IMG/VR virus record: IMGVR_UViG_3300046543_000140
Span: 1-25,194 of that record
DNA: 25,194 nucleotides
Reading direction: 5' to 3' (one strand)
Source of the DNA: a virus
Shown here: positions 336 to 24,988 of the stretch, piece after piece
Numbering within the stretch: position 1 is the stretch's first letter
Layout of the letters: the number at the start of each line of letters is the position of its first letter
Made by a program: the position numbers and the translations under genes
The notes under the pieces: model-generated
What the model was told of the DNA's origin: nothing
The model's database searches: none
The model's input: only the letters and a program-made list of their open reading frames with translations

Positions 336-1886
336 TCAGTGCGGCATTGTCGCGAGCGAGAGGATGCCCGGTGTGTGCTCGACCAGGTCCAACGTCTTGT
401 TGTAGCGGATGAGCTCGGCCTTGGTCATTCCAGTCAACATCTTGCGCCGCTGCCCGTCGTCCAGCATGTCGAACAGGAACGCGCGCGGGTCGTGCTCTGT
501 CTGCCATTTGCTGAGGAAATCCATGTAGTCATTCGGATGCCCGCCGCCGGCTTTGAAATCTTGCGTCGCCATCTGCTTCATTCGTTCGACGGCGAGCAGC
601 GGCTTGACCACCTCCTTGTTAGCGAGTGTTGACAGGTGCGAACTCGGGTTGCCGGTGATCGCCGAGGCAAGCGCCTGATCAGATCGAGCAGACATCCCCT
701 GCGCGTTCACATACTGCTGCATGTATTTGGTGACCTCGTCATACTTGGCCTGCTGGATCGTCTGCGCATCCCAGCCCATGCTTGCGGCCGCCGTCTGCAG
801 GAAACTCTTCGCCCGGTTGAGCGCGTCGGCCCCCTGCCCGGTGGTGACGTCCCCGGAGGCGAGGATCGAAGCCACCTGCGCGAGCGGGAAGATGCGCTGC
901 TGATATGTCGTTGAGGCCTCTAGATCGCGCGCGTAGAGGGCGCTGCTCGCCTCCCACTTCGCCTTGTCGTCGGGCCGGGGGCCCGTTGGCACGGGCGGCA
1001 CGGGTGCGCCCGGCATGGACGTGCCGGGTGCGACCACGGGTGCGCCGCCCGGGCCAGGGGTGCCCGGCGTTGGCGCTGGCGCTGCGGTGGCGCCTGGCAC
1101 GGGCGGGGGTGGAGGCGCCCCGACGCCACGCTTTGCCCGCTCCATCAGCATGCCGTTGGTCATAAACTCAGGCTGACCATTGGTGGGGTTTTTGTAGTCG
1201 GGGATTTGGGTGTTCCACCATTCCGGCGTTACCCCGAGCGGGATGCCGCTGCCCGCCGGGGCGACCGCACCCGTGTAGAGGTTCGTGTTGGTGCCGACCA
1301 CATCCGGCCCCCGGTTCATCGTGCCCGGTGCGCCGTAGTGCAATTTGAAATTCTGCTCGGCTGACAGCGCGCTGTCGCGGAGCTGCTGCACGTAGGTCGG
1401 GATTTGCTTCTCGTCGGTCGGCACGCTGGCGATCTCTTTCGCCAAGATGTCGGACGGGATGACGCCAGCCGCGCCACCCTTGTTCAACATGTCGATCACC
1501 TGCTGCCGCGTGGCGTTCAGCGGCAACGCAGCCGACGCGCCCTGCAAGAACCCGTTGATCAGGTGCCCACGGTTGGCCTGCTCGGTCTGCCGCCCCGACG
1601 AGGCCTCCAGCCCCGCCGCCATGCCCATCGACGCGTCGCGGTCGCGCGAGGCGATCGCCTGCGCGCGCGGATAATCGACCACCCCGGTGTTCGGGTCGGT
1701 CGCCTGCTGCAGCGCGTCGCCCCACGCCTGCTGCGCTTTCGCTGAGCGCAGGGCGAGGACGTTCCGCGCCGCTTCGCTCGCGCGCGTGATCGAGCCTAAC
1801 ACGTTCACCTGCGCCGGATTGGCGAGGCTATCGATCACGCTGGCATTGCGCTGCCCGGCGATCAGGTCGCTGATGCTGTCGCTCAT
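336..1886 (-). CDS. Putative internal virion / DNA ejection protein (516 aa)
   Basis: The 516-residue protein has no recognisable enzyme motif. It is rich in Ala and Gln and looks largely helical: residues about 1-60 and 330-516 carry amphipathic helices, separated by a Pro/Gly/Ala-rich linker at about 257-305 that includes a run of five prolines. Its ATG overlaps the stop of the preceding pilot gene (ATGA). In P22-like phages two or three ejection proteins (gp7, gp20, gp16) are encoded together after the tail genes; its place between a gp7-like gene and a murein peptidase gene suits a gp20/gp16-type role, forming a conduit for DNA across the cell envelope. Function is inferred mainly from position and composition. 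Confidence 0.6.
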   Translation of the reverse strand: MSDSISDLIAGQRNASVIDSLANPAQVNVLGSITRASEAARNVLALRSAKAQQAWGDALQQATDPNTGVVDYPRAQAIASRDRDASMGMAAGLEASSGRQTEQANRGHLINGFLQGASAALPLNATRQQVIDMLNKGGAAGVIPSDILAKEIASVPTDEKQIPTYVQQLRDSALSAEQNFKLHYGAPGTMNRGPDVVGTNTNLYTGAVAPAGSGIPLGVTPEWWNTQIPDYKNPTNGQPEFMTNGMLMERAKRGVGAPPPPPVPGATAAPAPTPGTPGPGGAPVVAPGTSMPGAPVPPVPTGPRPDDKAKWEASSALYARDLEASTTYQQRIFPLAQVASILASGDVTTGQGADALNRAKSFLQTAAASMGWDAQTIQQAKYDEVTKYMQQYVNAQGMSARSDQALASAITGNPSSHLSTLANKEVVKPLLAVERMKQMATQDFKAGGGHPNDYMDFLSKWQTEHDPRAFLFDMLDDGQRRKMLTGMTKAELIRYNKTLDLVEHTPGILSLATMPH

Positions 1887-2656
1887 GGTGCCCTCGGATC
1901 ATAAATCATAGGCTGGGGTGAGTTCACCGACCGAGGTGAGTTCAAGTAGCTTTGGAAGTTTGTGTAATCCAGATAGTTCTGCGCCGCGCCCGTGGCCGCC
2001 TTGCCGATGCCGCCAATGCCCGCCGCCGTATCGACCCCCGCCGTGTTGGTATATTGAGCAGCCGTGTTGGTCAGGCCGGCGCCGATCGTGCCGGTCTGCG
2101 CGCCCGCGTTCTCGCCGAGCGTAGCGAGGCCTGACGCCCGGTTGTATTGGTTGGTGATGTTACCCTGCTGCGCGGTGTTCAAGGAGAGCGCGTCGGCGAA
2201 GCGCTGCTGCTGGATATTAAACTGGTCCTTGTAGGTGTTGTTCGCGAGCCCGGTGGCATAGCCGGTGATGCCCCGCATGTCGCCGCCGCCGGCAATGCCG
2301 AGCCCGCGCGCCGCCGCACTCCCCTGCGCCGCGCGGAGCCCCTGCGCGAGGGTGAATTGGTAGCCTGGCGTCGCCTCGAGTTGGGCTTGCGTCATCTGCC
2401 CGGGCTGCAGCGCATCCGCCTGTGAAACATAATCCGGGCCGCCGCCGGTTCGGTCCATGGCCAGCGCATTCATCGTCGGCAGCACCGCCTGGCCGGCGGT
2501 GTTGTAGGGCATCAGGTCGCCGCGCGTTTGCTGCCGCTGCGCCGCCGCCAGGTTGGCGGCTTTGTTCGCTGCGCCAGCAGCGCTAGAACTGCCGATCATG
2601 CTGGTGATGCCGCCGATCAGGGCGGAGCCGCCGACCGCAGCCGCCAATGCGACCAT
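1883..2656 (-). CDS. Putative DNA transfer / ejection protein (gp7-like, 257 aa)
   Basis: The protein opens with a hydrophobic glycine-rich stretch (residues 1-30: Ala/Gly/Ile/Ser) that could insert in a membrane. It continues as an Ala/Gln/Asn/Gly-rich chain with repeated QFNIQQQRFADAL-like and TGTIGAGLTNTAAQ-like segments. This composition is typical of small P22 gp7-type pilot proteins and of the phage 'DNA transfer protein' family. The start codon directly follows the TAA stop of the sulfotransferase-like gene, and a perfect GGAGG lies 5 nt upstream, inside the end of that gene. The gene ends in an ATGA overlap with the 516-residue pilot gene. No catalytic residues are visible. Assignment rests on composition and gene order. 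Confidence 0.65.
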   Translation of the reverse strand: MVALAAAVGGSALIGGITSMIGSSSAAGAANKAANLAAAQRQQTRGDLMPYNTAGQAVLPTMNALAMDRTGGGPDYVSQADALQPGQMTQAQLEATPGYQFTLAQGLRAAQGSAAARGLGIAGGGDMRGITGYATGLANNTYKDQFNIQQQRFADALSLNTAQQGNITNQYNRASGLATLGENAGAQTGTIGAGLTNTAAQYTNTAGVDTAAGIGGIGKAATGAAQNYLDYTNFQSYLNSPRSVNSPQPMIYDPRAP

Positions 2657-3232
2657 TTACGCCTCCATCATGCGGACGCAGGCAACACCCGCTTCTGCCG
2701 CCAATGCACGCAGCTGCGGCCCACGACTGAGTGCCGCCACCATCTGCGCCCGGTTAATCTGCAAATTCTGCCGGTCGTGTTCTTCCCACCATTCCGGGTC
2801 GTGCGCGTAGGGCAGGCAATGTTCAAATACCTCCGCGCACACCTCCTCGGAAGCCAGGTCCTCGAACCGCACCGACAGCACGTTCGGCATGCGGTGTTCG
2901 ATCTGGTCGAGCTTGCGGTCGTGGTGTGCGGCCACGCGCGTCATCAGCAGCGTGTCGAACGCCAGGCCGGCACGATGCAACGACGCGATCACATCCGCCA
3001 CCGGCCGGCGCACGGTGACCACCCGCACGGTGGGGCTTAGGAGGCGCCAAAACGGCGCCGCCGACGTCTCGGCTGTGCCGACACAGGGTTGCCGCAGCCA
3101 GGCGCCCACGGCTCCCAGGCTGTCGCAGTGCAGCAGCTCGTCGTGTCCGCAGTGCCACGCGCCGTAAGTCAAGAACCGCGAGAGCCAGAACGACCGGCTG
3201 CGCGGCAGCGAGAAAATGACGAACGGGGTCAC
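2657..3232 (-). CDS. Sulfotransferase-like P-loop protein (191 aa)
   Basis: The GTG start at 3232 overlaps the stop of the upstream fibre gene (GTGA), as at many junctions here; a GTG at 3247 is an alternative giving five more residues. Residues 5-18 (VIFSLPRSRSFWLS) resemble the 5'-phosphosulfate loop PxSGTxWL of PAPS-dependent sulfotransferases, with Arg in place of Gly. Residues 69-87 (VRVVTVRRP...SL) resemble the 3'-phosphate binding segment, where Arg75/Arg76 and Ser84 would contact PAPS. RFEDL at 122-126 matches the RYEDL-type motif of the family. The C-terminus is Trp/His/Glu-rich (PEWWEEHD) and helical. Such enzymes move a sulfuryl group from PAPS to a sugar, lipid or tyrosine. The chain is shorter than a typical 250-300 residue enzyme. 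The fold call is fairly firm, the activity and substrate unknown. There is no signal peptide, so it would act in the cytoplasm or be packaged. Confidence 0.7.
   Translation of the reverse strand: MTPFVIFSLPRSRSFWLSRFLTYGAWHCGHDELLHCDSLGAVGAWLRQPCVGTAETSAAPFWRLLSPTVRVVTVRRPVADVIASLHRAGLAFDTLLMTRVAAHHDRKLDQIEHRMPNVLSVRFEDLASEEVCAEVFEHCLPYAHDPEWWEEHDRQNLQINRAQMVAALSRGPQLRALAAEAGVACVRMMEA
2662..2666 (-). promoter_or_regulatory. Ribosome binding site GGAGG of the gp7-like gene
   Basis: A perfect GGAGG on the minus strand lies 5 nt before the ATG at 2656, inside the last codons of the sulfotransferase-like gene. It fixes this start and suggests the ejection genes are translated strongly and independently of the upstream cistron. 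Confidence 0.75.
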
Positions 3233-3744
3233 GCGATCGCGGCCCACGCCGTGCCTCCCTGGTTGACGAACAGGATGCCGCCCGGCGCCCCGGTGGTGCG
3301 CGAGTAGAGCGAGCCGGTGACGGCGGCGCCGGTCGGCACGACCGTGCCGGCCGTCCAGGTCGGGCCGCCGGAGCCGCCGGCCTGCAGCGTCGTAAACGTG
3401 CCCGTGGTGCCCGTCAGGGGCCCGCTGAGCGTGCCGCCGGTCAGGGGCAGCGTGGTTGCCTGCAGGTGCGCGTCGGCCGCCTGGCGGGCGCTGGCTTCGC
3501 GCGCGACGGCATCACCGACCGCCACCGTCTCCGCATGCGCGGCGGCGGCGATCGCGGCGTCATTCTGCGCCCTTACCGCCGCCTCGGTGCCGACCGCCCG
3601 CGCCACCGAGACGCCCTCGGTCGAACCGGTGCGGTCGTAGAGGGTCGTGAAAAACGCCCGCCAGGCGCTGGCGGGCTGCCCGGTCGGGTCCAGCAGCGGG
3701 CCGGTGGGGAACGCCGCGCGGTAGGGGTGGGCGGGGTCTGCCAT
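3229..3744 (-). CDS. Short tail fibre / appendage protein (171 aa)
   Basis: The ATG at 3744 shares one base with the stop of the upstream fibre gene (TGATG). Residues 11-40 contain LLDPTGQPASAWRAFFTTLY, a sequence type I associate with N-termini of podovirus fibre proteins. Residues about 45-97 form an Ala/Glu/Val-rich helical stretch likely to be a trimeric coiled coil. Then comes TLPLTGGTLSGPLTGTTGTF (about 98-117), the beta-rich repeat style of tail fibre shafts. The C-terminus (LYSRTTGAPGGILFVNQGGT) is a common fibre tip sequence type. It probably works with the preceding 272-residue protein as an adhesin or accessory fibre. Confidence 0.65.
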   Translation of the reverse strand: MADPAHPYRAAFPTGPLLDPTGQPASAWRAFFTTLYDRTGSTEGVSVARAVGTEAAVRAQNDAAIAAAAHAETVAVGDAVAREASARQAADAHLQATTLPLTGGTLSGPLTGTTGTFTTLQAGGSGGPTWTAGTVVPTGAAVTGSLYSRTTGAPGGILFVNQGGTAWAAIA

Positions 3745-4562
3745 CAGCTGCCGATCGCCACCCAGTAGAAAGTCGGCGCGAGGGGCGCAGGCGGCGTCGT
3801 GATGCCGGTTGACCCTTGGTAGGCGACGACATCGCAGCCGGTGGTGGTGAGATTGAGGGCGGCAAACGTGACGCTGCCGAACGCACCTGTGGAGAGGACA
3901 GTGGCGTCGGCGAGCGTGCACACGACCGCCGAAATGCTGTGCGCGAACGGGGCTGGAAAGGTGACGTGCACCGAGCCCCCGGCGCCGAGCGTCGTGCGCC
4001 CGCTTTGCATGTAGGTGGTGGGCGTGCCGGTGATCAGGCTGATCTGCGTCTGCAGGCTGGTGTCGACCGCAATCAAATCCGCAACGGCGGTCGTGGTGTA
4101 GTTGGTGATGTTGTCGTCGGCGAGGATGCGAGCGTTTGTTTCGGCAGTGAGGCTGCCTTGTTGGATCACCACCGAGGCGGCGATCGCCGCGTCGCGTGCC
4201 GTCGCCTCGGCGGCGATCGCGGTGGTGACGCCCAGGTAGTTCATTGCATCCAGCGTGGTCGGCGCCGAGGTCACCGGATACATCGCCGCCGAGACGATCG
4301 TGGTCGCCGGCTGGTCCCAGATCAGATTGCCGGCGGCGTCGTAGAGGATCAGCCGATAATCGCCATCGCCCCACATCGAGCATTCGCCGGCCCCGTCCAG
4401 CGTGATTGGGTTAGTATTGATGGCGATTTGATCCGGGTCCTTCCAGGTGGTCTTCGGCGTCATCGTCCCCTTGACGAACGTGCCGATCAGCCCGCCCGTG
4501 TAGGGTTTGCCGTTGGGGTCGCAAAATTGTGGCTTCGGCTGCAGCAGGGTAGGTGCGGTCAT
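3744..4562 (-). CDS. Tail fibre with P22 head-binding-like N-terminal domain (272 aa)
   Basis: Residues 1-85 have the layout of the P22 tailspike head-binding domain family: PKPQFCDPNGKPYTGGLI, then a PxTTWKDPD segment, NPITLDGAGECSMWGDGDYR, and LYDAAGNLIWD. This domain anchors fibres to the tail hub. Residues about 95-170 form an Ala/Glu/Asp-rich helical segment that suggests a trimeric coiled coil. Residues about 185-272 are beta-rich (GAGGSVHVTFPAPF ... PPAPLAPTFYWVAIGS), resembling a small phage fibre tip. Its start overlaps the gp10-like stop (ATGA), which fits attachment to that hub. No endosialidase or lyase residues are seen, so I take it as a binding fibre rather than an enzyme. Confidence 0.75.
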   Translation of the reverse strand: MTAPTLLQPKPQFCDPNGKPYTGGLIGTFVKGTMTPKTTWKDPDQIAINTNPITLDGAGECSMWGDGDYRLILYDAAGNLIWDQPATTIVSAAMYPVTSAPTTLDAMNYLGVTTAIAAEATARDAAIAASVVIQQGSLTAETNARILADDNITNYTTTAVADLIAVDTSLQTQISLITGTPTTYMQSGRTTLGAGGSVHVTFPAPFAHSISAVVCTLADATVLSTGAFGSVTFAALNLTTTGCDVVAYQGSTGITTPPAPLAPTFYWVAIGS

Positions 4563-6046
4563 GCTGCTTCTTTCTGTTGCGGTTCAGGCAGGGGATTGTC
4601 GGCCATGTCGAACGTGATCCAGGCGCCCTGCAGCGCGCATGGCGCGTCGATCGTCCAGGACAATTTGAAAACGCGATCGCGCGCCATGCCGAGGCGCTGC
4701 CATTGCATGCTGGTCAGCGTGTCCCCGAGGCCGCCCAGGGAATTGAGCACCGGATTGCCGAAGCTGCGCCCGCGATCGTCGGACCACGACAGCGAAGCGA
4801 AATTCAAATCTTGAACGAACGGCCCGCTGCCGGTTTCCATATCGGCGAGAAACTCGCGGTAGAATACCCGCCGCGCCTCGTTGATCAGGTGCGGAAACGA
4901 GCGCTCGCGCTTGATCGGAAACCCCCAGTCATTGTGCACCTCGGGGTCGAGCGCATAGAGGTTTCCATATTGCCGGTCGCCCGCCACCAGGATGCCGAAG
5001 CAAGGGTAGACGCACATGATCCGGTGCGCATGCTCGTTGCCGTTGCTGTCGGTGAACGCCCACTCGTGCCATTGCTTGGTAAGCAGGTCATAGACCCAGG
5101 TGTGGTCGGCCGTCGGGAACGTGAGCACGTAGAAGATGTGCCCGCCGATTTGATAACAGAAGCCAATCGCGTCATCGATGACCGGGTATTTGCGGATTGC
5201 CTCCTCGATCGCGAACGTCGAGATGCGCTCGCCCTTATACCCGGCGATCATCAGCACGATCCCCTTGCCGGTGCGATCGCGGCTGAGGAGGAAAGTCGTA
5301 TTGTCGTTGGTGGCGACCGAATACTTGGCCGCCGTGCCGTAGTCGATGAAGACGCCCTGCACCGACGTGAATTGCTGCAGCAGGAAGCCGGTGACGGGAT
5401 CAATGACGCCCGCGTTATAGAAGACTTCGGTGGTGCGCTCGCCGATCAGGATGATCTCCCGCTTGGCCACGGCGATCGTCACCAGCGGATCGGGGGCGCC
5501 CGCCTTCGGGGCGACGTCGAGCTGGTCGAATGTCAGCGCATAGGCGCCGCTCCAATACATCAGCTGCGTGCCCGGCTTGTTGAAAACGAAGAAGCCGTCG
5601 ATGTAGTCGACCCGGTCGGCGCCGTAGAAATAGGGATCGACGATCTGCGCGAACGCGTCGGTAGCGAGGTCCACCGACCAGCCGCCGCCGGGCGTGCCAT
5701 CGACGACCACCAGGTCGAACGTGTTGTCCGCCAGGCTGACCGGCGTCCGCCGCCCGGTGGCGATGCTGCCCAGCAGGGCAAACGTCCACGGGGCGCCCGG
5801 CGTCACCCGGTAAACCCCAGCCCCGGCGACCATGTAGATTTTGCCGTTGCTCGCCTGGCGCACGCCGCGCACCGGCAGCTCGGGCGTGTAGCCCAGCAGG
5901 CTCAGGCCCGGCGTCGGAAAGTGCGCCACCGGCATCGGCTCGCCCGTCTCCTGCGGCAGCTGCTCGGGGTAGAGGTTCAAGCAGCGCTGCGCGCTCGCAA
6001 TCACCGAGCGGGATTGATAGGCGCCGGAGGTGAGGGGAACCTTCAC
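4559..6046 (-). CDS. Tail hub / packaged DNA stabilization protein, P22 gp10-like (495 aa)
   Basis: The protein opens with VPLTSGAYQSRSVIASAQRC, then NLYPE, FPTPGLSLL and RGVRQASNGKIYMVAG, the characteristic N-terminus of the P22 gp10 'phage stabilisation protein' family. It continues with beta-propeller-like repeats such as YIDGFFVFNKPGT and YDLLTKQWHEW. Length (495) is close to P22 gp10 (472). In P22 gp10 forms a hexamer below the gp4 ring, seals the DNA and carries the tailspikes. The start is GTG, overlapping the previous stop (GTGA). Downstream comes a fibre with a head-binding-like domain, its likely partner. Family assignment is firm. Confidence 0.9.
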   Translation of the reverse strand: MKVPLTSGAYQSRSVIASAQRCLNLYPEQLPQETGEPMPVAHFPTPGLSLLGYTPELPVRGVRQASNGKIYMVAGAGVYRVTPGAPWTFALLGSIATGRRTPVSLADNTFDLVVVDGTPGGGWSVDLATDAFAQIVDPYFYGADRVDYIDGFFVFNKPGTQLMYWSGAYALTFDQLDVAPKAGAPDPLVTIAVAKREIILIGERTTEVFYNAGVIDPVTGFLLQQFTSVQGVFIDYGTAAKYSVATNDNTTFLLSRDRTGKGIVLMIAGYKGERISTFAIEEAIRKYPVIDDAIGFCYQIGGHIFYVLTFPTADHTWVYDLLTKQWHEWAFTDSNGNEHAHRIMCVYPCFGILVAGDRQYGNLYALDPEVHNDWGFPIKRERSFPHLINEARRVFYREFLADMETGSGPFVQDLNFASLSWSDDRGRSFGNPVLNSLGGLGDTLTSMQWQRLGMARDRVFKLSWTIDAPCALQGAWITFDMADNPLPEPQQKEAA

Positions 6047-7180: not shown

Positions 7181-7185
7181 CTCCT
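7181..7185 (-). promoter_or_regulatory. Ribosome binding site overlapping the tailspike stop (TAAGGAG)
   Basis: The tailspike stop TAA runs into AGGAG, 9 nt before the ATG at 7171. This supports the short form of the signal-peptide gene, beginning MKSLPL. Confidence 0.7.
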
Positions 7186-10100
7186 TAGAAGCACGGAACA
7201 TAACGAACCGTGCCGCTGGCATCCTTGATCGTCAGCCACTCCTGCACCGTCGCATGTGCCCCCGCAGGTGCGAGCGCAGTCAGCGACACCGACGTGGCGC
7301 CATTGGCTGTCCACGCGCCGCTCCCAGCTTGGATCGTGCCGCCGCTGGGCTGCAACGCAAGTGTCGTACGCGTCGTAGACCATGTCGGCGTCAGCACGCA
7401 GCCGGTGCCCGTGCTCGCTGACCGCGCCGTGGTGGCGAGCGTGGCTGGTGGCGAGGCCGTCGGGTAGATGGGCTGCGCAACCACGGTTACGCTCGTTACG
7501 ACGCCGCCCGACGCCAGCGTGTAGTAAACCCCACCATAAGCATCATCGAGAATGTCACCGCCCAACCCCGCATACCCTGAACCGCCCGCACTTACCGCAG
7601 GGGTGCCGGTGCCAACTGAACCCACCACATCAACCGACAACCCGGTTGCTGTCGGCGTCAGAAATGCGGTGCTTAGTTGCAGCACTCCCGTTGGGCTGAC
7701 AGCAAATCCCCCGGGCGTACGCAACGCCGCAGTGGTGAATGTCACATCGTTGAAATCGATACCGATATTAGCAAGGGCGGTGTGTGCCTGCGATAATTCA
7801 TACGCGAGCACTTTGCTATCCGTCCCCAGCGGGGCTAATGGCGAAAAACCACCGCCAAACCGCAACCCTGTGCGCCAGGGCGGTCCTGTGGCCTGCCCGA
7901 CCACAATAGCGTCATCAGCCATGGCCCCGCGCACTGCGTGGCCGCCACTGTTGTTGACCGCCAGACCCGCTCGACGAACCACCGATGAGCCGGTGTTCAT
8001 GGCGTTATCAAGCTCGATGCCAGTCATACCATAAAGGTTCAGCGCACCGTTCTTTGCCGTGCAGATAACGTCGATGCCCCAGTTGTTGCCGAATGCTGTT
8101 GACGGCGTTAACCCAGTTCCGCCTTGCGGCTGCGAAGCAATGCGATTGATCTGCGCTGCCAAAAAGCATCCCAGCCCGCCCCCCGCTTTATCATTAGTGG
8201 GGGCGATATCGCTGCAAGTCGCAGCTAACGCTTGCCAACCACCCGATACAGCCGCGACACCGCCCGCAACAAAGCTAACCCGCAAGGCATCAACGAGGCT
8301 ACTGGGTGCATTAACATTGGCCTGAGATAGATTGATCCACGCCGCGCCGGGGATTTCTGGCACAGTTGAATTACCAATAATTCCGTTTTGCACATAAAGG
8401 CCGAACAAGGTCGTATCGATCGTGCCGCCTGATAGCGTGTAGGTATTGGCCCGCCCGAAGTTTGTGCAGTTCGCTGCCAGCGGGCCGCCGGTAAAAGCAA
8501 TGCCAGGCGAGTTCTGCGCCTGAATAATGGCAGGGGTGGTGGTCTGATTGGCTCCCGCCGTCATCGTGATGATGTTGTTGGTTCCCGCCACGCCAACAAT
8601 GTGCTGCCCCCGGGTGCGGGCATTGCCGGTAACATCGAGGCCGAGGCCGGCGGCGGTCAGGTTGACAAGCCCAGCCACCGTGCCACCCGTGGCCAGCGGT
8701 AGGAACGGCCCGGTCGTCGTCGTCGGCAGCGTGACGGAGCCCGTCGCCACAAACGGCCCATTGACGGTTAGCGTTCCCGGCCCGACCGCACCACCGGATA
8801 GCGCCAGGTAGGGGCCACCAACGGGCGGCGTGCCGCTAACATCGGGAATGCACGGCAACCACGTGTTCGCCGCCGCGCCGGGGCCGCCCTGAATGAAACG
8901 GAACGCTGCACCAGCCGACAACACCGCTGTCGGCGGTCCGGCAACCGCCGCGCCCGTGGCCGCCGTCACCGTGAGCGTGCCAACTGGGTTTTGAAACCGC
9001 ACGTCGAGCTGGCTGCCGATGGTCTGGAATGAAGACGCGGCTGGCGCCGGCAGCACGAGGCTGCCGGTGGCGATGCTGGAGGAGTTGTTCACCAGCATGA
9101 ATGACGTGTTCTGCGGAACGGTGACGGTGCCGCCGTTGGCGAGCGTCGCGGTCTGGATTGCGCCATGCACGAGCGCACCACTGAGGCGGGTGTTGGCGTA
9201 ACCGTCAACCGACAACAGCGAGCCACCAGTGGTGAAGCCCAGCGTGCCGCTGTTGCTCACGACGACGGGCAGGCCGACACTGGTGTCAATCACGCCGCTG
9301 TCGAGCGCGGACGCATTGATGGCGCCGGCGGTGATGGTGAGGATATCCAGGCCCGTGTAGGGCGTTGGCACGCCAGCGACATTCTGGGTCAGCACGAAGT
9401 TGATCGTTGTGCCCGACGTGCCCGCGTTGTCTGCGGTCGCGATCCAGTTGCCGCCGAGTTTCGAAATATCCCGTCCGTCAGTGAACCCAATGCTGTCTGT
9501 GCCGAGTACCAGCGACAGGTTGAACCGGCTGCCGACGACCAACCCGTGCGGCGTGCGAGTGGTGAGAGTAACGATAGCCGTGGCAGGGTCATAGCTGCTG
9601 GGGGCTTGAACGGAGATGCCGATGACCTTGATGAAATCGAAGCCGCCGGGGCTGGCGTTGCCGGCACCGACATAGATGTTGCTCTCGCCGCGCCCGGCGC
9701 TGCGGTTGTATCCAACCTGAACGCCAAGCGGCGCGAAGCGCTCGGCGCTGTCATTCGAGAACGGCTGGTGCAGAGTGGTGCCGTTGGTGAACCCGGTCAC
9801 CACATCGAAGTTGTTGCCCTGCATCCCACCGGCGGACATATCGGCAGGGAAGTTCCCGCCGCTGTTGATCCTGGGGCCGTAGTAATTGCCGGTGCAAACC
9901 CCCTGGATGCCCCAGGTGCCACCAATCGCGGCCAGCATCGTGGGTGGTGATTGATAATCAGCGATGAAGTTGTCAGCGATATAGAGCCGATCCGCGCCAT
10001 GGGTGACGATACCGAAGCCATTCGGCACCAGCTGACCCCCGGTGAAGGTAATCGTCCCCAGCCCTGCCGGCGCATGAAAATTCAGGATAGTCGGGCCTGT

Positions 10101-12296
10101 GGACGCCTCGGCAATGTATCGACCTTCGATGCTGGCATGCGCCCCGGTCCCTGTAGTCGCTGACAAGGTAAAATAGGCATTCGTGAACAGATTATGCGGG
10201 ATTGCCGTGGTCAGGCTGACTGCACCAGTCGCATTGTTATACGTCCCGCTGACGACCTGCGTCAGCGTCGTGCCCGCCATGGTCGTGCTGATCAGGCACG
10301 GGTCGCGGAGGGTGTTGCCGGTAATGCTGACACGGTTCGCATCAGGCCCAACCGTAATTTCACCAACGCTGCCGTACGTGTTCAGCCCCACCGCCCGGTT
10401 CTTGTAGAAATAATTGTCGGCGCATTCGAGGCCGTCGCAACTACCGAAACCCGCCCCGCCTCGGTTGCCGGTGATGTAGTTGTTGAAGATACGGGTGCCC
10501 GTGTGCGGGATATTCCCCGTTCCAAAGTTAACAGTTCCGACGCCTGCGCCGAGGTTGTCATGGATATAATTGCCGGATATCTCACAATCGACGCAACGCC
10601 CGGAGTTCGCGTCCGAGAACAGGTATGGCCCCGACCCCAGGTTACGAGTGATCTCGCTGTTGCGGATGTAGCAAGCGACACCACCACCGTAGATGCATGG
10701 ACCGATGTCGCGGATTTGGTCGATAAAGCAATTATCGAAACCGCTGTTCCAGCACTTGGTGCTGACCCCGATCGTGCCGCCCGTGATCGAGAGGGTGGGA
10801 CCACCGTAGACGGTGCCGCCGCTGATGGTGATGCCGGCTAGATTAGGCGGCCCCACGTACTTAATCGTGGTTCCGGTAGTGCCCGCTACGCAGACATATT
10901 CACCATGCAAGCCAGAGAGAAACCCGGAGCCAGTTGCGGACACCGTGACAACATCGCCGGGGGACATGCCGTGTGGCGCATCGGTCGTCAACGTGACAGT
11001 GCCGGATGGAGCATCGTAGACGCCGCTAACGATGTTCTCCGTGGTGCCGGTCCGCGTCGTTCGATAGCGCAGCGTTACGTTCTTCGCTGCGGTAATAGGC
11101 GGCTCACCGGCTCCATCAGTCACGTCGAGCAGCTGGAAGATGCCGGTGGCAACAGCCGCCGCCGTGCCGCCGGTGATGTTGGACGAAATCGTCTGTCCAT
11201 AGACCAACTGGTGCGGTGCGGTCGTCGTCACGGTGATGACGCCCGTGGCCGGCACATAGGTACCGCTGACGATCGTCGCCTGCTGGTAGAACCAGTTGGT
11301 AATGCGACCGCCGGTGATCGAACCATCGGTGCCGACACCGCCGCCGGTAGCGGCATAAACGATCGTGTTTCCGGCAGTGCCGGCAAGCGTAATGAACAGT
11401 TTGCCTGTTGCAGCGTTAAAGCCACCAGTGCCGGTCAATGTTTCGGTGATGAACTCCTCACCCGGCACCATGCAGTGCGGAACATTGGTGGTCAGAGTGA
11501 CGATGCCGGTCGCCGCGACAGAGGTTCCGGTAAAGGTCAGCGGTGTGCCAGCCGCAGGGTCGTAAGGGAAATTGCGCCAACCACTGACCCCGACCGAACC
11601 GGCGTGAAACGCCGAATTGGTCAGCGAGATATCCGAGACTTCGCAATTCGTCGCGCCAGCCAGCCCAACAGCTTGGTTCTGGAAATTCGTGATCAGCCCA
11701 TTGCGATCACCGATAATCTTGACGTGGCTGCAAAAGCCACCCTGCACGGGAGGATTTCTTGCAGGACCGCCCCAAATTCTATCGTTGCTTATGCCGCCGC
11801 TAATGCTCGCCGGGTTTCCATTTGTCGCCGGATAGTCCAGATTAAGTTGGAAGTATTGCTGCGACGAGTTGCCATCCAACGTGCCGTACAGCTCGATCAG
11901 GACATGGTGGGCGAAGTTGCACAGCAGGAACATGTTCGCGTTGGTCTGCGGCGCCAGTTTCAGCGTCGCGCCCAGCTCGATGATGATGTGGCTATGCGAG
12001 GGGATGATGAGCGAGGTGCCGATGATGTATGGCAGCGGATTGGCGGGCACGATCAGCCGCGTCAACCCCGGAGCCGAGGCGCGGTCTGCCGGATCGGCAT
12101 CAGCCGCACCATCGATCGCCTGCTGGAAATACGGCGCAAGATCGGTCACGCCATCCGGCTGGCCGCCCGGTATCCAGTCGGTGACCCGAGTGCCGTGCCC
12201 GGCGTTGGCGATCGCGGCATTCAGCTCATCCGCAATCAGGATTTCGCCCTGCTTCCAGGGGTAGTGCGGGCGGTTGGGAGGAGAGATGCTGTCCAT
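7185..12296 (-). CDS. Giant tailspike / fibre with pectate-lyase-type beta-helix (1703 aa)
   Basis: The ATG at 12296 has AGGA 6 nt upstream. Residues about 1-45 (YPWKQGEILIADELNAAIAN) look like a virion-anchoring head. GTRVTDWIPGGQPDGVTDLA with FQQAIDG at about 35-63 is the start of the pectate-lyase-like superfamily, in which right-handed beta-helices bind or cleave capsular or O-antigen polysaccharide. Helix rungs are evident at about 530-650 (NSEITRNLGSG, NYIHDNLGAGV, NNYITGNRGGAG, NYFYKNRAVGL). Five copies of an 80-100 residue module (SGxYxxATGxVTLTTxxPHGL) lie at about 252-332, 343-422, 423-499, 682-758 and 896-994. Residues about 1000-1560 are Thr/Gly-rich fibre sequence. The C-terminus (LQPSGG, then APAGAHATVQEWLTIKDASG) is a frequent fibre end. 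It is much longer than the P22 spike (667). Catalytic residues cannot be named from the sequence alone. Confidence 0.85.
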   Translation of the reverse strand: MDSISPPNRPHYPWKQGEILIADELNAAIANAGHGTRVTDWIPGGQPDGVTDLAPYFQQAIDGAADADPADRASAPGLTRLIVPANPLPYIIGTSLIIPSHSHIIIELGATLKLAPQTNANMFLLCNFAHHVLIELYGTLDGNSSQQYFQLNLDYPATNGNPASISGGISNDRIWGGPARNPPVQGGFCSHVKIIGDRNGLITNFQNQAVGLAGATNCEVSDISLTNSAFHAGSVGVSGWRNFPYDPAAGTPLTFTGTSVAATGIVTLTTNVPHCMVPGEEFITETLTGTGGFNAATGKLFITLAGTAGNTIVYAATGGGVGTDGSITGGRITNWFYQQATIVSGTYVPATGVITVTTTAPHQLVYGQTISSNITGGTAAAVATGIFQLLDVTDGAGEPPITAAKNVTLRYRTTRTGTTENIVSGVYDAPSGTVTLTTDAPHGMSPGDVVTVSATGSGFLSGLHGEYVCVAGTTGTTIKYVGPPNLAGITISGGTVYGGPTLSITGGTIGVSTKCWNSGFDNCFIDQIRDIGPCIYGGGVACYIRNSEITRNLGSGPYLFSDANSGRCVDCEISGNYIHDNLGAGVGTVNFGTGNIPHTGTRIFNNYITGNRGGAGFGSCDGLECADNYFYKNRAVGLNTYGSVGEITVGPDANRVSITGNTLRDPCLISTTMAGTTLTQVVSGTYNNATGAVSLTTAIPHNLFTNAYFTLSATTGTGAHASIEGRYIAEASTGPTILNFHAPAGLGTITFTGGQLVPNGFGIVTHGADRLYIADNFIADYQSPPTMLAAIGGTWGIQGVCTGNYYGPRINSGGNFPADMSAGGMQGNNFDVVTGFTNGTTLHQPFSNDSAERFAPLGVQVGYNRSAGRGESNIYVGAGNASPGGFDFIKVIGISVQAPSSYDPATAIVTLTTRTPHGLVVGSRFNLSLVLGTDSIGFTDGRDISKLGGNWIATADNAGTSGTTINFVLTQNVAGVPTPYTGLDILTITAGAINASALDSGVIDTSVGLPVVVSNSGTLGFTTGGSLLSVDGYANTRLSGALVHGAIQTATLANGGTVTVPQNTSFMLVNNSSSIATGSLVLPAPAASSFQTIGSQLDVRFQNPVGTLTVTAATGAAVAGPPTAVLSAGAAFRFIQGGPGAAANTWLPCIPDVSGTPPVGGPYLALSGGAVGPGTLTVNGPFVATGSVTLPTTTTGPFLPLATGGTVAGLVNLTAAGLGLDVTGNARTRGQHIVGVAGTNNIITMTAGANQTTTPAIIQAQNSPGIAFTGGPLAANCTNFGRANTYTLSGGTIDTTLFGLYVQNGIIGNSTVPEIPGAAWINLSQANVNAPSSLVDALRVSFVAGGVAAVSGGWQALAATCSDIAPTNDKAGGGLGCFLAAQINRIASQPQGGTGLTPSTAFGNNWGIDVICTAKNGALNLYGMTGIELDNAMNTGSSVVRRAGLAVNNSGGHAVRGAMADDAIVVGQATGPPWRTGLRFGGGFSPLAPLGTDSKVLAYELSQAHTALANIGIDFNDVTFTTAALRTPGGFAVSPTGVLQLSTAFLTPTATGLSVDVVGSVGTGTPAVSAGGSGYAGLGGDILDDAYGGVYYTLASGGVVTSVTVVAQPIYPTASPPATLATTARSASTGTGCVLTPTWSTTRTTLALQPSGGTIQAGSGAWTANGATSVSLTALAPAGAHATVQEWLTIKDASGTVRYVPCF

Positions 12297-12302
12297 TGGT
12301 GA

Positions 12303-12306
12303 TCCT
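12303..12306 (-). promoter_or_regulatory. Ribosome binding site of the tailspike gene
   Basis: AGGA, sharing bases with the stop TAG of the gp4-like gene, stands 6 nt before the ATG at 12296. It favours this start over a GTG/TTG-type extension to 12338. Confidence 0.6.
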
Positions 12307-13819
12307 ATGCCAACACAGAAGTGCCGCCCACGGTCCACGCCCGGTCGAGCCCGCGCCCGGCCCAGCTGGACACGTCGCCGCCGCGCCCGCCGAGGATGAC
12401 CGGCAGGCTCAAAAGCGGGATCTGACTGTTAGCCAGGCGTATCGTTTGCAGCGCCGCGCGCGCCTGGCCGAGCAGGAACGGGCTCACCGGGGCGCCACTT
12501 GCCACCACCATGCGCACGGCCAGATTGTTGACCACCGCGTCGGCATATTCCGGCGGCAGGGACAACGCGTCGTCGATCGTCAGGAACACCGGCAGCGGCG
12601 CCTTGGTGAGAATGTGCAGCTCGTAGAGCCCGGCCGCCGGCACCGGGTAGAAGGTGATACGCGCGCTAGGAAAAGCGCTGTCGTAGAACAGTGCCGACGG
12701 GATCGAGCCGAGGTCTTTGATCGTGATCTGACCCCAGTCTTCTTTGCTCTCGATGATCGCCAGCGGAATGTCGACGGGGTTGTGCCCGCTGTTCGGCATC
12801 AGCCGGCACCAGCCGCCATGAATTTTATCCGGACGCAGGATGGGGAAATCGCCGCCGGGGCCAACCGAGTACCACTGGTTGCCGGTCGCCATTTTGGCGG
12901 TCTCTGCCTCGTTCCAAATCAACCAGCGTTTGCGCTGCCACTGCGCCAGCATCATCGTCAGCAGGCTGAGCGCGTCGGCCATGTCGGCCGAGGTGTCGCT
13001 AACGCGCTGCTGGTCGTTGACGCGCCCGGCCAGGCGCAGCGCGAGGAGCAGCACCTGGCGCACCGTGGACGGCACGCCGCCGGGCACCAACGCCGCCTGC
13101 TGCTGCTGGTTGATCGCCTGCAGTAGCTGCAGCGCGCGATCGGCGCGGCCCTGCAGCGTCGCCGGCACCTCTTGCCCCCAGAGGTCACGCAGGCGCACCG
13201 CCAGGTTGAGCGTGAGAGCGTTCCTCATCCCGTGCGTGAACGTGCCGGTGATCGGCGCGTTGATGTCGACCAGGTTCGGCAGCGCGTTCGGGTTGACGCG
13301 CACGTCACGCTCGCGCTGCCACTCGTCGACCATCTCAAGCAGCTGCAGGTGCGCCTCGGTGACGTCCGCAGAGGCGGGGTCGACACCCTGCGTGTCGGAT
13401 AGCCGCCCGGCGGCGCGGAGTGCCATGTAGACGATGCTGAGGGGCGTAGAGAGGTCGATCGCGGGGTCGACCGGCGTGACCTGCAGGTTCTGCGCCTGGA
13501 ACGCCGCCAGGGCGCCCTGGGCAATCTGCACGTCGATCGGGACCGGTGGCAGCGCGTAGATTTGCCGCAGGCGCACGGCCAGGCTGGTCAGCAGCACATG
13601 CTCGTATGGACCCCAGAACGACACGTCGGTGGTGAGGTCCGGAAACGTCGGCAGCACGATCGCATTGACGTGCACGCGCCGCTCGAGGTTGAGCTCGCTG
13701 ATCCACGCATTGAGGATTTTGAAACAGTCGTTGACGTCATCGGCGCGCGGGGTCTGCCCGATGCCGTTGACCCCGCTGTTGCGCAGCGACAGGAACAGAA
13801 TATCGTTAGCGATTGTCAT
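12305..13819 (-). CDS. Head-tail adaptor with three gp4-like units (504 aa)
   Basis: The P22 gp4 family (tail accessory factor, 166 aa, ring of twelve under the portal) has a pattern 'xxxAlrxxGxxx...daxxxLxxMxxxWxxxx'. That pattern occurs three times here. Unit 1, residues 1-115: IANDILFLSLRNSGVNGIG ... CFKILNAWISELNLE. Unit 2, about 124-242: STPLSIVYMALRAAGRLSD ... LQLLEMVDEWQRERDVRV. Unit 3, about 251-470: STVRQVLLLALRLAGRVND ... LSLLTMMLAQWQRKRW. Each unit then has an LAVRL/LAVRM motif (80-84, 206-210, 433-437) and an AxxAL helix. Unit 3 carries an extra beta-rich insertion at about 305-420. Start is ATG in an ATGA overlap. It probably closes the portal and stabilises packaged DNA. The repeat reading is direct from sequence; the ring stoichiometry is unknown. 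Confidence 0.85.
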   Translation of the reverse strand: MTIANDILFLSLRNSGVNGIGQTPRADDVNDCFKILNAWISELNLERRVHVNAIVLPTFPDLTTDVSFWGPYEHVLLTSLAVRLRQIYALPPVPIDVQIAQGALAAFQAQNLQVTPVDPAIDLSTPLSIVYMALRAAGRLSDTQGVDPASADVTEAHLQLLEMVDEWQRERDVRVNPNALPNLVDINAPITGTFTHGMRNALTLNLAVRLRDLWGQEVPATLQGRADRALQLLQAINQQQQAALVPGGVPSTVRQVLLLALRLAGRVNDQQRVSDTSADMADALSLLTMMLAQWQRKRWLIWNEAETAKMATGNQWYSVGPGGDFPILRPDKIHGGWCRLMPNSGHNPVDIPLAIIESKEDWGQITIKDLGSIPSALFYDSAFPSARITFYPVPAAGLYELHILTKAPLPVFLTIDDALSLPPEYADAVVNNLAVRMVVASGAPVSPFLLGQARAALQTIRLANSQIPLLSLPVILGGRGGDVSSWAGRGLDRAWTVGGTSVLA

Positions 13820-21774: not shown

Positions 21775-23114
21775 ACGCTCATCCAGCTGGTGACCGGGCG
21801 ACCGTTAGGCGTGGTGACGTGGTCCCATTGCCCGGTTTGGATCGCATCCTGCGGTCGGAGGTCGATCGTCTGCGGGACGCCGGCCTCGCGCACGCCGAGG
21901 GCGAGGTAGCGCATGCTGTCGGCCCCGTGGCTGGCGTGGTCGTGCACCGGGGTCGCGCGCCAGGCCTGCGCCGCCTCGTTCCACTCGCGCCGGTAATGGC
22001 GCAGCGCGTGGATGCCCTTGGCGCAGCGTTGGGCGTCGAAATAACAGCGCGGGAGCACCATGCGCACCGCGTTGATGCCGTCGGCGATGCTGTGGCTGCG
22101 GAGCGTGCGGGTGGGGCGGATGCCGAGGCTGTGGAACGTCTCCACGCGACTGCGCCCGCTGCCGAGCTCCACGACCTTGGCGTCATGCGGCAGCAAATGC
22201 TTGGCGTAGACATAGGGGCGCTGCTGCAGCAGCTGCGCGTAGTGATCGAGGCCGGCGCCGCTGTCCTCGAGGTAGTCAATCACCCGCCACTCGCCGGATT
22301 TGGTGATCTGCACGAACCAAATCGCAGTGCTGTCGTGCACACCTAAATCCCACGCGGTGGTGACCAGCAGATTGGGCTCGTGCGGCACCACGGTGATGCG
22401 ATTTTGACGCTCGGCCTCGTCCATCAACTTGCCGTAGTAGCTGCCACTGTTCGGGGAGGCGAAGCTGCACTCCATCTCCTGCGCGAACTCTTCCGGCGAC
22501 ATCTCGAGGCGCAGGCGGTCGATCGCGGCCGGGGTCAGGGCTTGGGTCTGCGTGTAATCGAGCAGATAGGTGGAATAACCGGGGGTGATGCGCGCGTGGT
22601 CGTAGGCGGCCTGCAGGATGCCTCTGCCTTTCGGCGTGCCAGAACGGACCAAGGTGCCCATTCTATCGGCCAGCATCGGCTCGATGACCAGGGGAATGAG
22701 GGATGGCGGCGTATCGTCGGCCTCGTCGACGATCGCCTCGTCGGCAGCACCCCCGCGCCAGCTGTCAGGATTGTCGGCGCCGCCGCACTGGTAGGTGCCG
22801 CCGTTCGGCAATTTGATTGCCATATCCGAGCGGCGTGGAACGGCGCCGGGGATACTCTCGGCGGCTTTCGAGAGGGCATCCCAAAGCCCGGTGCGCTGCC
22901 ACATGACCCCAAATGGGAGAATGTGCACGACCCGGGGTAGCGCTTTCTTCTCGGTCAGGGCCCGCTTGAGGCCGCGCCACATCAGGGCGGTTGATTTGCC
23001 AGCGCGTCGGTGCACCACCGCGACAATCCGGGGCGCCGGGTCGTCGATGAGCTGGGTCTGCCACGGGCGCGGGCTGAACGGCAGCTGCAGGCGGCGTTTT
23101 GGGGCGGTGGTCAC
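21771..23114 (-). CDS. Terminase large subunit (447 aa)
   Basis: This is the ATP-driven packaging motor and nuclease. Residues 34-42 (VHRRAGKST) are a Walker A motif of the terminase type. AIVDEAD at 127-133 is Walker B with the catalytic Glu131. SGTPKG at 158-163 is the coupling motif. In the C-terminal RNase-H-like nuclease the acidic residues are Asp256 (AWDLG), probably Asp311 (LPHDAK) and Asp399 (HASHGADSMRY). The chain is complete though a little shorter than P22 gp2 (499). Start is GTG in a GTGA overlap with the ART-like gene. The small subunit that would recognise the packaging site is not evident in the window. Confidence 0.95.
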   Translation of the reverse strand: MTTAPKRRLQLPFSPRPWQTQLIDDPAPRIVAVVHRRAGKSTALMWRGLKRALTEKKALPRVVHILPFGVMWQRTGLWDALSKAAESIPGAVPRRSDMAIKLPNGGTYQCGGADNPDSWRGGAADEAIVDEADDTPPSLIPLVIEPMLADRMGTLVRSGTPKGRGILQAAYDHARITPGYSTYLLDYTQTQALTPAAIDRLRLEMSPEEFAQEMECSFASPNSGSYYGKLMDEAERQNRITVVPHEPNLLVTTAWDLGVHDSTAIWFVQITKSGEWRVIDYLEDSGAGLDHYAQLLQQRPYVYAKHLLPHDAKVVELGSGRSRVETFHSLGIRPTRTLRSHSIADGINAVRMVLPRCYFDAQRCAKGIHALRHYRREWNEAAQAWRATPVHDHASHGADSMRYLALGVREAGVPQTIDLRPQDAIQTGQWDHVTTPNGRPVTSWMSV

Positions 23115-24988
23115 TGTTGATCCTGGCCGGCGCCGGCCGCCGCAGCCGCCCCGGCGGCGCCGACGGCGCCCAGCGGGGTCAGCAGCGGATGACGGCCGCG
23201 AATGAAGTCATCGAGCGCCTGCTCTTTGGTTATTCCGCGCTTAACAGCGGTGTTGTGGAGACGATTTTCGACTATTCCGAGGAAAGATGTCGGCAGGCTG
23301 CGCAGTCCGGTGACGCGGCCGCCGCCGACCCACAGCGCCGCTTGGAATTGCGCGGGGGTCAAGCCCATCTTACCGGCGATATGCTGCGCCCACGCCTCAA
23401 GCGCCCCATAATGGTTGGGGTCGGGCATATCCTGCCACATATGCGGGTGCTGCAGCGCCTGTTCCATCGTTATGCGACCGGATTGAACCTCTTTTTTCCA
23501 GTTCCGGCTTTCACCTTTGGCGATGCCGAGGGCGGGATAGTTGACATCCGCGACGGTCTTGCCGTTGAGGAACGCGGGGTCTTGAGAGAGCATCCCGATC
23601 AGCCGGATAAAATGTTTGTCCCCGGTGATTGGTTGCTGATTGCCGCCAAGATTGGCGACGAAAGACGACCGTTTCGCCTGCGTTTCCGGGTTGAGCGTTC
23701 CGGTGTCGCCCTCGTTGAGCCCGCGATAGCCGCTGATGTGCGCCTGCTGCAGCTTGTGGCCGTAGGGCGGGATCAGGTCATTGGACGTCCGGACAGGCGT
23801 CCCGGCCCGTTCCATTACGTGATAATAGGAGGCGGCACGCACATTCTGTCCAACCTCAGAACCGGCGGAGGTGGCACCAACAATCGGTATGTAACGGTTA
23901 AATTGTGCGTTGCCCTCTTCTGGCCCGAGACGGTCGATAAAGGCTTGCCGTAACGGTTCCGCATTATACCAATGCGCGCCGCCGACCTCGAGGCCCTTCT
24001 CGGCGACGAAACGAAGTTTCGCCTCGAGGTCCGGGTTGCTCATCGCATTGATAATGTGCTCGGGCAGGCCCTTGCGCTTGCCACCGTAGGGGTCGATGCG
24101 CGCGAGGTCGGTCTGCGGCACATCTGGCACCTGCCAGGTGTTGGACAGGTCAAGAACGTGGTCAGGGTGCGCAGGCGAGCCCGCCTGCAGCTGGGCCGGT
24201 GTCACCGGCCCCGTATTGCGGCTGGGGACGATGTCCCCGTAGGCGGGCATGCCGAGTGCCGCGAGGTCCGCGTCGGCGTTGGAGCCGAGGCGGCCCGCCA
24301 GGCTCTCCATGACCGGCGCGCCGGCCGGGCGCGGCGCGAGGGGCACCGCGTCGGGGAAAGGCACATGCCCGTCCAGCGAGTGACTGACGGGGCCGGCCGC
24401 AGCCGGGGTGGGGGTTGCCGGGGGCTCTGCCGACGGGGTGTGAATTACGGCGTCAGCGGCAGAGATTGGCTTGTCTACGCCAACATTGTGCCCAGCCCGC
24501 AAATAATCATCGATGCCCCACCCGTCTCGCCCAGAATAGCTGTTCGCGTCGGCAATATTCAGCAGCTGCCCGTTGGGTAAATCGAAATCAACTTTCAGGT
24601 CTGATTTGGGCACTTTCAATTCAACAACCGGGCCGCCAGCCGCATAACCGGAAGCGGTCGCCTTGTTCGGCGATAGAAACGCGGGGCCTTTCACCTGCCC
24701 GTCGGCCTTGATCTGTGCCGCCCCCTCAGGGGAGGTGCCGTGGTAAAGAGTGGTCAGGTCGTCGGAGGGTGCCTGCGCAGGAAGCGCTGCAGCGGGCGCT
24801 GAAGACCCTTCCTGCGCGACAGGTTCCTCTGCGTCGGGGAAAGGCAAATGACCGTCCAGGGACGCGCTGCGCGGATTGCGCGCGGCGGCACGCGTGCCGG
24901 GCTCGGGTGGGCGGTCGGCGCCGGGGGCGCGCACCCGCTTGCTGGGCAGCGCCACCGGTTCCCCGGGGAGCCGGCCTATGTCGGGCAC
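23111..24988 (-). CDS. Polyvalent-type protein with ADP-ribosyltransferase-like domain (625 aa)
   Basis: From GTG 24988 the chain has a Pro/Arg-rich head (1-75), an ART-like domain at about 79-183 (TLYHGTSPEGAAQIKADG, then AFLSPNKATASGYAAGGPVV and GWGIDDYLRAGHNVG), a Pro/Ala linker, and a long domain at about 297-600 with YHVMERAGTP, GDKHFIRLIGML and YGALEAWAQHIAGKMGL; the end is Ala/Gly-rich (604-621). The motif SLDGHLPFPDA occurs at 43-53 and, with one change, at 204-214. 'YHGTs...FLsx...A..YA' fits the ART fold; a catalytic glutamate is not obvious. The long domain resembles pieces of large phage 'polyvalent' proteins thought to be ejected with DNA. The start is uncertain: no ribosome binding site, and an in-frame ATG at 25027 is separated from it by a TGA. 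Ends in a GTGA overlap with terminase. Confidence 0.7.
   Translation of the reverse strand: MPDIGRLPGEPVALPSKRVRAPGADRPPEPGTRAAARNPRSASLDGHLPFPDAEEPVAQEGSSAPAAALPAQAPSDDLTTLYHGTSPEGAAQIKADGQVKGPAFLSPNKATASGYAAGGPVVELKVPKSDLKVDFDLPNGQLLNIADANSYSGRDGWGIDDYLRAGHNVGVDKPISAADAVIHTPSAEPPATPTPAAAGPVSHSLDGHVPFPDAVPLAPRPAGAPVMESLAGRLGSNADADLAALGMPAYGDIVPSRNTGPVTPAQLQAGSPAHPDHVLDLSNTWQVPDVPQTDLARIDPYGGKRKGLPEHIINAMSNPDLEAKLRFVAEKGLEVGGAHWYNAEPLRQAFIDRLGPEEGNAQFNRYIPIVGATSAGSEVGQNVRAASYYHVMERAGTPVRTSNDLIPPYGHKLQQAHISGYRGLNEGDTGTLNPETQAKRSSFVANLGGNQQPITGDKHFIRLIGMLSQDPAFLNGKTVADVNYPALGIAKGESRNWKKEVQSGRITMEQALQHPHMWQDMPDPNHYGALEAWAQHIAGKMGLTPAQFQAALWVGGGRVTGLRSLPTSFLGIVENRLHNTAVKRGITKEQALDDFIRGRHPLLTPLGAVGAAGAAAAAGAGQDQQ

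Follow-up and report, generated by a model that had tools for sequence, protein, structure and literature searches.

A sulfotransferase-fold gene in a P22-like virion operon belongs to a phage family found in the slot before the ejection genes

What would a sulfotransferase-like protein be doing among the virion genes of a phage? The window analysed here, the whole 25,194-nucleotide stretch of a 25-kb virus contig, encodes along its minus strand a terminase, portal, coat protein, adaptor, tail spike-like open reading frame (ORF), head closure protein Hc3, fibre, fibre-like protein, the sulfotransferase-fold (ST) gene, a phrog_598 protein and a further ejection-module gene. The original prediction, made from the letters alone, described the ST gene as locked into the virion operon, overlapping a fibre gene upstream and abutting an ejection gene downstream. 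The features on which the argument depends are as follows.

4559-6046, minus strand: head closure Hc3 / packaged-DNA stabilisation protein (phrog_578, E 5e-95)
3744-4562, minus strand: tail fibre with a Gp53-like C-terminal domain (domain match)
3229-3669, minus strand: upstream overlapping gene, 146 aa, of fibre/collar-like sequence character and with no convincing database match
2657-3232, minus strand: sulfotransferase-fold ORF, 191 aa, GTG start, a single-domain member of the ST-GNAT family
1883-2656, minus strand: DNA ejection protein (phrog_598, E 5e-14)
336-1886, minus strand: ejection-module gene after phrog_598, 516 aa, whose homologues trail the ejection gene in related phages

The start of the ST gene overlaps the upstream stop by GTGA (3229-3232), with the upstream TGA inside it, and its own TAA (2657-2659) abuts the ATG (2654-2656) of the ejection gene with no gap. 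Both junctions are as originally described, except that the fibre label of the overlapping gene reflects sequence character only. Two other ORFs of the same strand deserve a remark in their own right. Upstream of the terminase (23111-24988) lies a long late-operon protein with LYHGTSPEGAAQIKADGQVKGPAFLSPNKATASGYA, reminiscent of an ADP-ribosyltransferase-type motif, and the 1717-aa tail spike-like ORF (7185-12338) has several repeats of the type VTLTTxxPHGMxxG inserted along its length.

An HMM built from relatives, with the window excluded, found 2657-3232 as its sole match in all six frames (E 1.1e-79), which together with the invariant residues below speaks against a chance resemblance; an alternative in-frame GTG at 3247 would extend the product to 196 aa. 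Within the 191 residues, the motifs claimed for a PAPS-binding sulfotransferase do occur in the expected order, LPRSRSFWLS at residues 9-18, VTVRRPVADVIAS at 72-84 and RFEDL at 122-126, and the positions discussed below are these.

3185-3208, minus strand: LPRSRSFW, residues 9-16, at the 5'-phosphosulfate-loop position; P10, R11, R13 and W16 invariant, Gly changed to Arg13
3143-3145, minus strand: His30, invariant, where strand 2 ends; by analogy a candidate for the catalytic base
3065-3070, minus strand: Glu55-Thr56, invariant; Glu55 aligned with Asp in SgdX2 VDWPAAAFW
2981-3010, minus strand: RRPVADVIAS, residues 75-84, the 3'-phosphate motif; R76 and S84 invariant, matching the invariant Arg and Ser of canonical sulfotransferases
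2855-2869, minus strand: RFEDL, residues 122-126, aligned with vxYEDL in Sulfotransfer_3 proteins

Conservation was read from 46 first-domain sequences reaching down to about 41% identity to the window protein, and thirteen positions are invariant in all of them (P10, R11, R13, W16, L21, H30, G52, E55, T56, A59, R76, S84 and C132). The Arg-x7-Ser 3'-phosphate motif is complete, with R76 and S84 aligning with the invariant Arg104 and Ser112 (A7 numbering) of canonical Sulfotransfer_3 proteins. Compared with [KR]SGTT, the 5' loop keeps P10 and R11, has S12 in 42 of the 46 sequences, replaces Gly with the invariant Arg13, does not conserve the second Thr and leaves position 15 free; the Gly-to-Arg change, noted earlier from one sequence, is real and an invariant signature of the virion-slot family, distant phage relatives of which read LPRSATTW. 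The third-motif Lys of canonical Sulfotransfer_3 proteins is absent, its column being occupied by Ala, Gly or Met, and Arg13 may replace the contacts of this missing Lys. Since the solved bacterial sulfotransferase SgdX2 (8y9p) also lacks the third-motif Lys in the aligned segment, its absence argues against filing the family under Sulfotransfer_3 but not against all sulfotransferases. By analogy, the invariant H30 and E55 would be suitably placed to serve as catalytic base.

No sulfotransferase model was matched in a Pfam search with the window protein alone, but a two-domain relative (L016) exceeded the curated Sulfotransfer_4 cut-off (25.8 against 22.8), and Sulfotransfer_3 was matched at E<0.01 by 16 of 53 family members. 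A profile-profile comparison with ten canonical Sulfotransfer_3 proteins from bacterial genomes gave a probability of 96.5, with the invariant Arg and Ser aligned. The best true sequence match in the PDB was SgdX2 (E 0.002-0.003), in which TVDWPAAAFWREL is matched to tvEtaaApfwrll and DWPAAAFWR to the family's ETAAAPFWR; the top-ranked sequence match, the designed helix bundle 9u78, was rejected because it reflects a repeated 20-residue helix and hence chance. With Sulfotransfer_4 and Sulfotransfer_3 (PF17784, PF13469) and SgdX2, the ST family has in common the fold and the Arg-x7-Ser motif, whereas it differs from the Sulfotransfer families in the Gly-to-Arg change of the 5' loop, in a core of only about 160 residues and in the GNAT fusion of its relatives.

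Structure prediction points the same way. An AlphaFold model of the window protein from eight alignment rows (pLDDT 80.7) is good over residues 1-158 and of low confidence over residues 159-191. The leading Foldseek matches in the PDB are all sulfotransferases (E 5.7e-5), and the top matches in a viral structure library are phage proteins annotated as sulfotransferases. VIA gave Z 12.5 over 155-160 residues for TPST1 and an olefin-synthase sulfotransferase domain, against Z 10-11 over about 135 residues for small kinases; this structural lead is modest, and the sequence evidence therefore matters. Taking the predicted fold, the conserved pocket and the profile match to true sulfotransferases together, the sulfotransferase variant of the P-loop fold is well supported for the modelled window protein, in agreement with the original prediction: the fold found was that of a sulfotransferase, and the Arg and Ser proved invariant. 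We tentatively infer PAPS use and catalysis by the window protein.

A family in the Abidjanvirus phages of Pseudomonas, PHROG 10855, named 'hydrolase', is a single-domain homologue of the window protein (E 4e-10) and has P10, R11, W16, H30, T56, R76 and S84 in common with it. Its loop LPRSATTW, as against the Arg13 loop of the virion-slot family, is close to the canonical PRSGTTW and so bridges the ST family to ordinary sulfotransferases. In phage PA_LZ03 the PHROG 10855 gene has exonuclease, ligase and integrase genes in its vicinity and is not, like the window gene, part of the virion operon. This Pseudomonas phage gene (L093:9001-9552) and its relatives, annotated '(putative nucleotide triphosphate) hydrolase', are themselves sulfotransferase-like, with the LPRSATTW loop and the pocket His, Arg and Ser kept and no Walker A lysine.

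Scans of viral contigs recovered first 10 and then 154 relatives; 80 of these were retained. Nearly all complete relatives are about 350 aa long and consist of the window-type domain and, after it, a domain with a match to PHROG 1249, a phage acetyltransferase, and weak matches to the GNAT models of Pfam; 50 of 53 aligned members have this ST plus C-terminal GNAT architecture, and the window protein, L015 and L028 are single-domain. The full-length model of the two-domain relative L016 (pLDDT 91.6) has a clear GNAT fold in its second half (Z 16.0), from which all the matches listed in its structure comparison came. This GNAT half keeps invariant positions across the relatives and, judged by eye, its acetyl-CoA motif retains GxG but not the preceding Gln/Arg. 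The window protein thus belongs to the ST-GNAT family by its N-terminal domain but lacks the C-terminal GNAT domain, and a profile search found no GNAT coded anywhere within the window. On the first-domain tree, where L015 stands beside a two-domain relative (support 100/93) and the window protein groups with L028 (88/88), with bootstrap not fully settled, at least three changes are required to account for the single-domain state. From this placement, the window protein is best read as a derived half, the GNAT domain having been lost in its line and separately elsewhere. In one uncultured alphaproteobacterial contig (L105:9995-10985) the ST and GNAT halves occupy two overlapping frames, as split genes or through a frameshift.

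The plasmids and E. coli genomes searched held no match to the family, and one clear match in 385 alphaproteobacterial genomes indicates a gene that is seldom chromosomal and, where it does occur, is carried by phages. A Sulfotransfer_4 search within the order of Azospirillum gave no match, with the controls equally silent. The open-licence literature yielded no description of an ST-GNAT protein or of an ST and GNAT pairing, which is weak evidence of novelty.

The position of the gene is more constant on one side than on the other. In 54 of 55 loci the downstream gene starts within -60 to +20 of the ST stop (median 0), and the median upstream spacing is -1, distances that indicate tight coupling. 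By PHROG match phrog_598 lies downstream in 29 of 45 loci; with profiles grown in this analysis, a phrog_598-like ejection gene comes next in 39 of 65 loci and Hc3 lies upstream in 38. In two further groups, of 8 and 6 loci, the downstream gene is of unknown family, and four loci fall outside every group. Overall, roughly between a quarter and a third of the loci have a downstream gene that could be assigned to no family. Upstream neighbours, in contrast, come from many unrelated fibre and collar families, and in five loci they are T7-type TTPA/TTPB, with a gp14-like or candidate internal virion gene downstream (a gp14-like match that is clear in L103 and L104 and weak in L057, L079 and L100). 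Magnetospirillum loci run TTPA, TTPB, ST-GNAT, a gp14-like internal virion protein (phrog_418, E 6e-32) and then long proteins, and loci of the Azospirillum prophage type share this TTPA and TTPB and continue with a gene whose phrog_418 match is weak (E 0.03); the arrangement reproduces the T7 gene order with ST-GNAT at gp13, while the window itself is P22-like. Persistent ejection genes beside varied fibres make the first ejection gene, and not the fibre, the most constant partner. The proposed lock into the virion operon therefore stands for the first ejection or internal-virion gene, and homologues do mostly keep to the ejection side, but the fibre varies in family and in T7-like loci gives way to TTPB. 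We regard the ST-GNAT family, and a slot common to two virion types, as a more notable finding than the family assignment of the window gene.

Each half also has counterparts standing alone. The phage GNAT family PHROG 1249, exemplified by the N-acetyltransferase of MW202796.1, is a homologue of the relatives' C-terminal half (E 7e-8; hhalign probability 95.7) and sits in the same Hc3-to-ejection slot without a sulfotransferase half, the window having the opposite half only; solo GNATs occupy this slot in MW202796, L124 and L125. Further solo GNAT relatives of the PHROG 1249 type (L126-L137) have no detectable Hc3 or phrog_598-like neighbours in their contigs. The 'acetyltransferase' orf028 of Xanthomonas phage PBR31 (L097:11072-11443) was rejected as a slot GNAT, since it has no GNAT signal and resembles a small fibre or decoration protein. 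In T7, gp13 lies between TTPB (gp12) and gp14, a slot that ST-GNAT fills in Magnetospirillum and also in Azospirillum prophages, where the downstream match is less certain. The gp13 protein matches PF11090, a Pfam family of its own, and phrog_308, neither of which the ST-GNAT family matches; it has no ST half, and with no signal between gp13 and the GNAT half it was rejected as a sequence homologue. GNAT proteins have been described beside internal virion proteins in cobaviruses, where a relation to T7 gp13 was suggested (PMC6775973), and after the tail tubular proteins in ZP6 (PMC8515928), and LUZ19 Rac (gp28) is a phage GNAT like the half absent from the window, with no ST half and another genomic place (PMC7552054); the passages of these three papers on cobaviruses, ZP6 and Rac mention no sulfotransferase half.

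We tentatively favour a sulfotransferase-fold enzyme of the ejection module that acts late and in the cytosol, using PAPS to modify an ejection-module protein or a loading partner. That it is instead another P-loop enzyme, a small kinase or NTP hydrolase, is suggested by the kinase Z scores and by the 'putative nucleotide triphosphate hydrolase' annotation of the Pseudomonas phage relatives, but we consider this very improbable because no Walker A GxxxxGK[ST] was found in the 46 sequences, which have PR[SC]R[TS]xW almost throughout, and because even the annotated 'hydrolases' have PRSATTW and the sulfotransferase Arg/Ser spacing. A further proposal is that the protein sulfates a glycan on the host surface or the fibre of the phage itself, which would fit the frequent use of sugars as substrates by bacterial sulfotransferases and the presence of a fibre gene upstream, both in the window and in a good many P22-like relatives. 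It is nonetheless quite unlikely, given that the upstream fibre families are many and unrelated, that TTPB takes their place in T7-like loci as the downstream ejection gene persists, and that the gene lies in the late operon and not in a conversion module; the specific proposal of glycan sulfation against superinfection found no support.

Two further readings were weighed against the favoured one. A product encoded beside ejection proteins could be injected, or be made late, as a host take-over enzyme that modifies a host protein, and LUZ19 Rac offers a precedent, a GNAT that acts on host transcription, in that RNA polymerase alpha is cleaved only when Rac is present, with an effect that depends on its acetyl-CoA pocket (PMC7552054). 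The place of Rac is a different one, however, with the phage RNA polymerase gene to one side and the first structural gene to the other; nothing in Rac corresponds to the ST half, and late expression would be poor timing unless the ST protein were packaged, all of which makes this reading unlikely. The fold might also have been repurposed as a non-enzymatic chaperone or scaffold for ejection proteins. The ST and GNAT folds would then offer surfaces for binding, and PAP or another nucleotide might serve as a structural ligand. T7-like loci place ST-GNAT in the gp13 slot (TTPB, ST-GNAT, gp14-like), Pfam labels gp13 a 'probable scaffold', a role for gp13 in virion morphogenesis has been proposed (PMC6775973), and the canonical pocket Gly and Lys are altered. 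We consider this somewhat unlikely because R76, S84, H30 and E55 (46/46) and the invariant GNAT positions go beyond the needs of a surface role, and because sequence kinship with T7 gp13 is not detectable.

Under the favoured enzymatic reading, the ST protein would be soluble, probably expressed late and active in the cytosol, where during assembly it would bind host PAPS. R76 and S84 would hold the 3'-phosphate and the R11-R13 loop the 5'-phosphosulfate, with H30 or E55 as base, and the presumed target would be an ejection-module protein or a partner required to load it. In two-domain relatives, the GNAT half may acylate that target or one next to it. A further-reaching and rather unlikely form of this proposal is a two-headed enzyme, PAPS-dependent transferase and acetyltransferase in one, that acts on ejection proteins in assembly, of which some phages, including that of the window, keep only the sulfo half and others only the acetyl half; if true, phage morphogenesis would have its first example of sulfation.

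Several short-tailed phages fill the slot before the ejection proteins with a GNAT-like or unknown protein of unsettled function, as with T7 gp13 and the GNATs of cobaviruses and ZP6. That a conserved sulfotransferase pocket turns up there in two virion types, and that each half can occur by itself, makes the question of function testable. We found no report of a search for chemical modification of ejection proteins; if the pocket is needed for infectivity, these proteins, or their loading, would depend on it.
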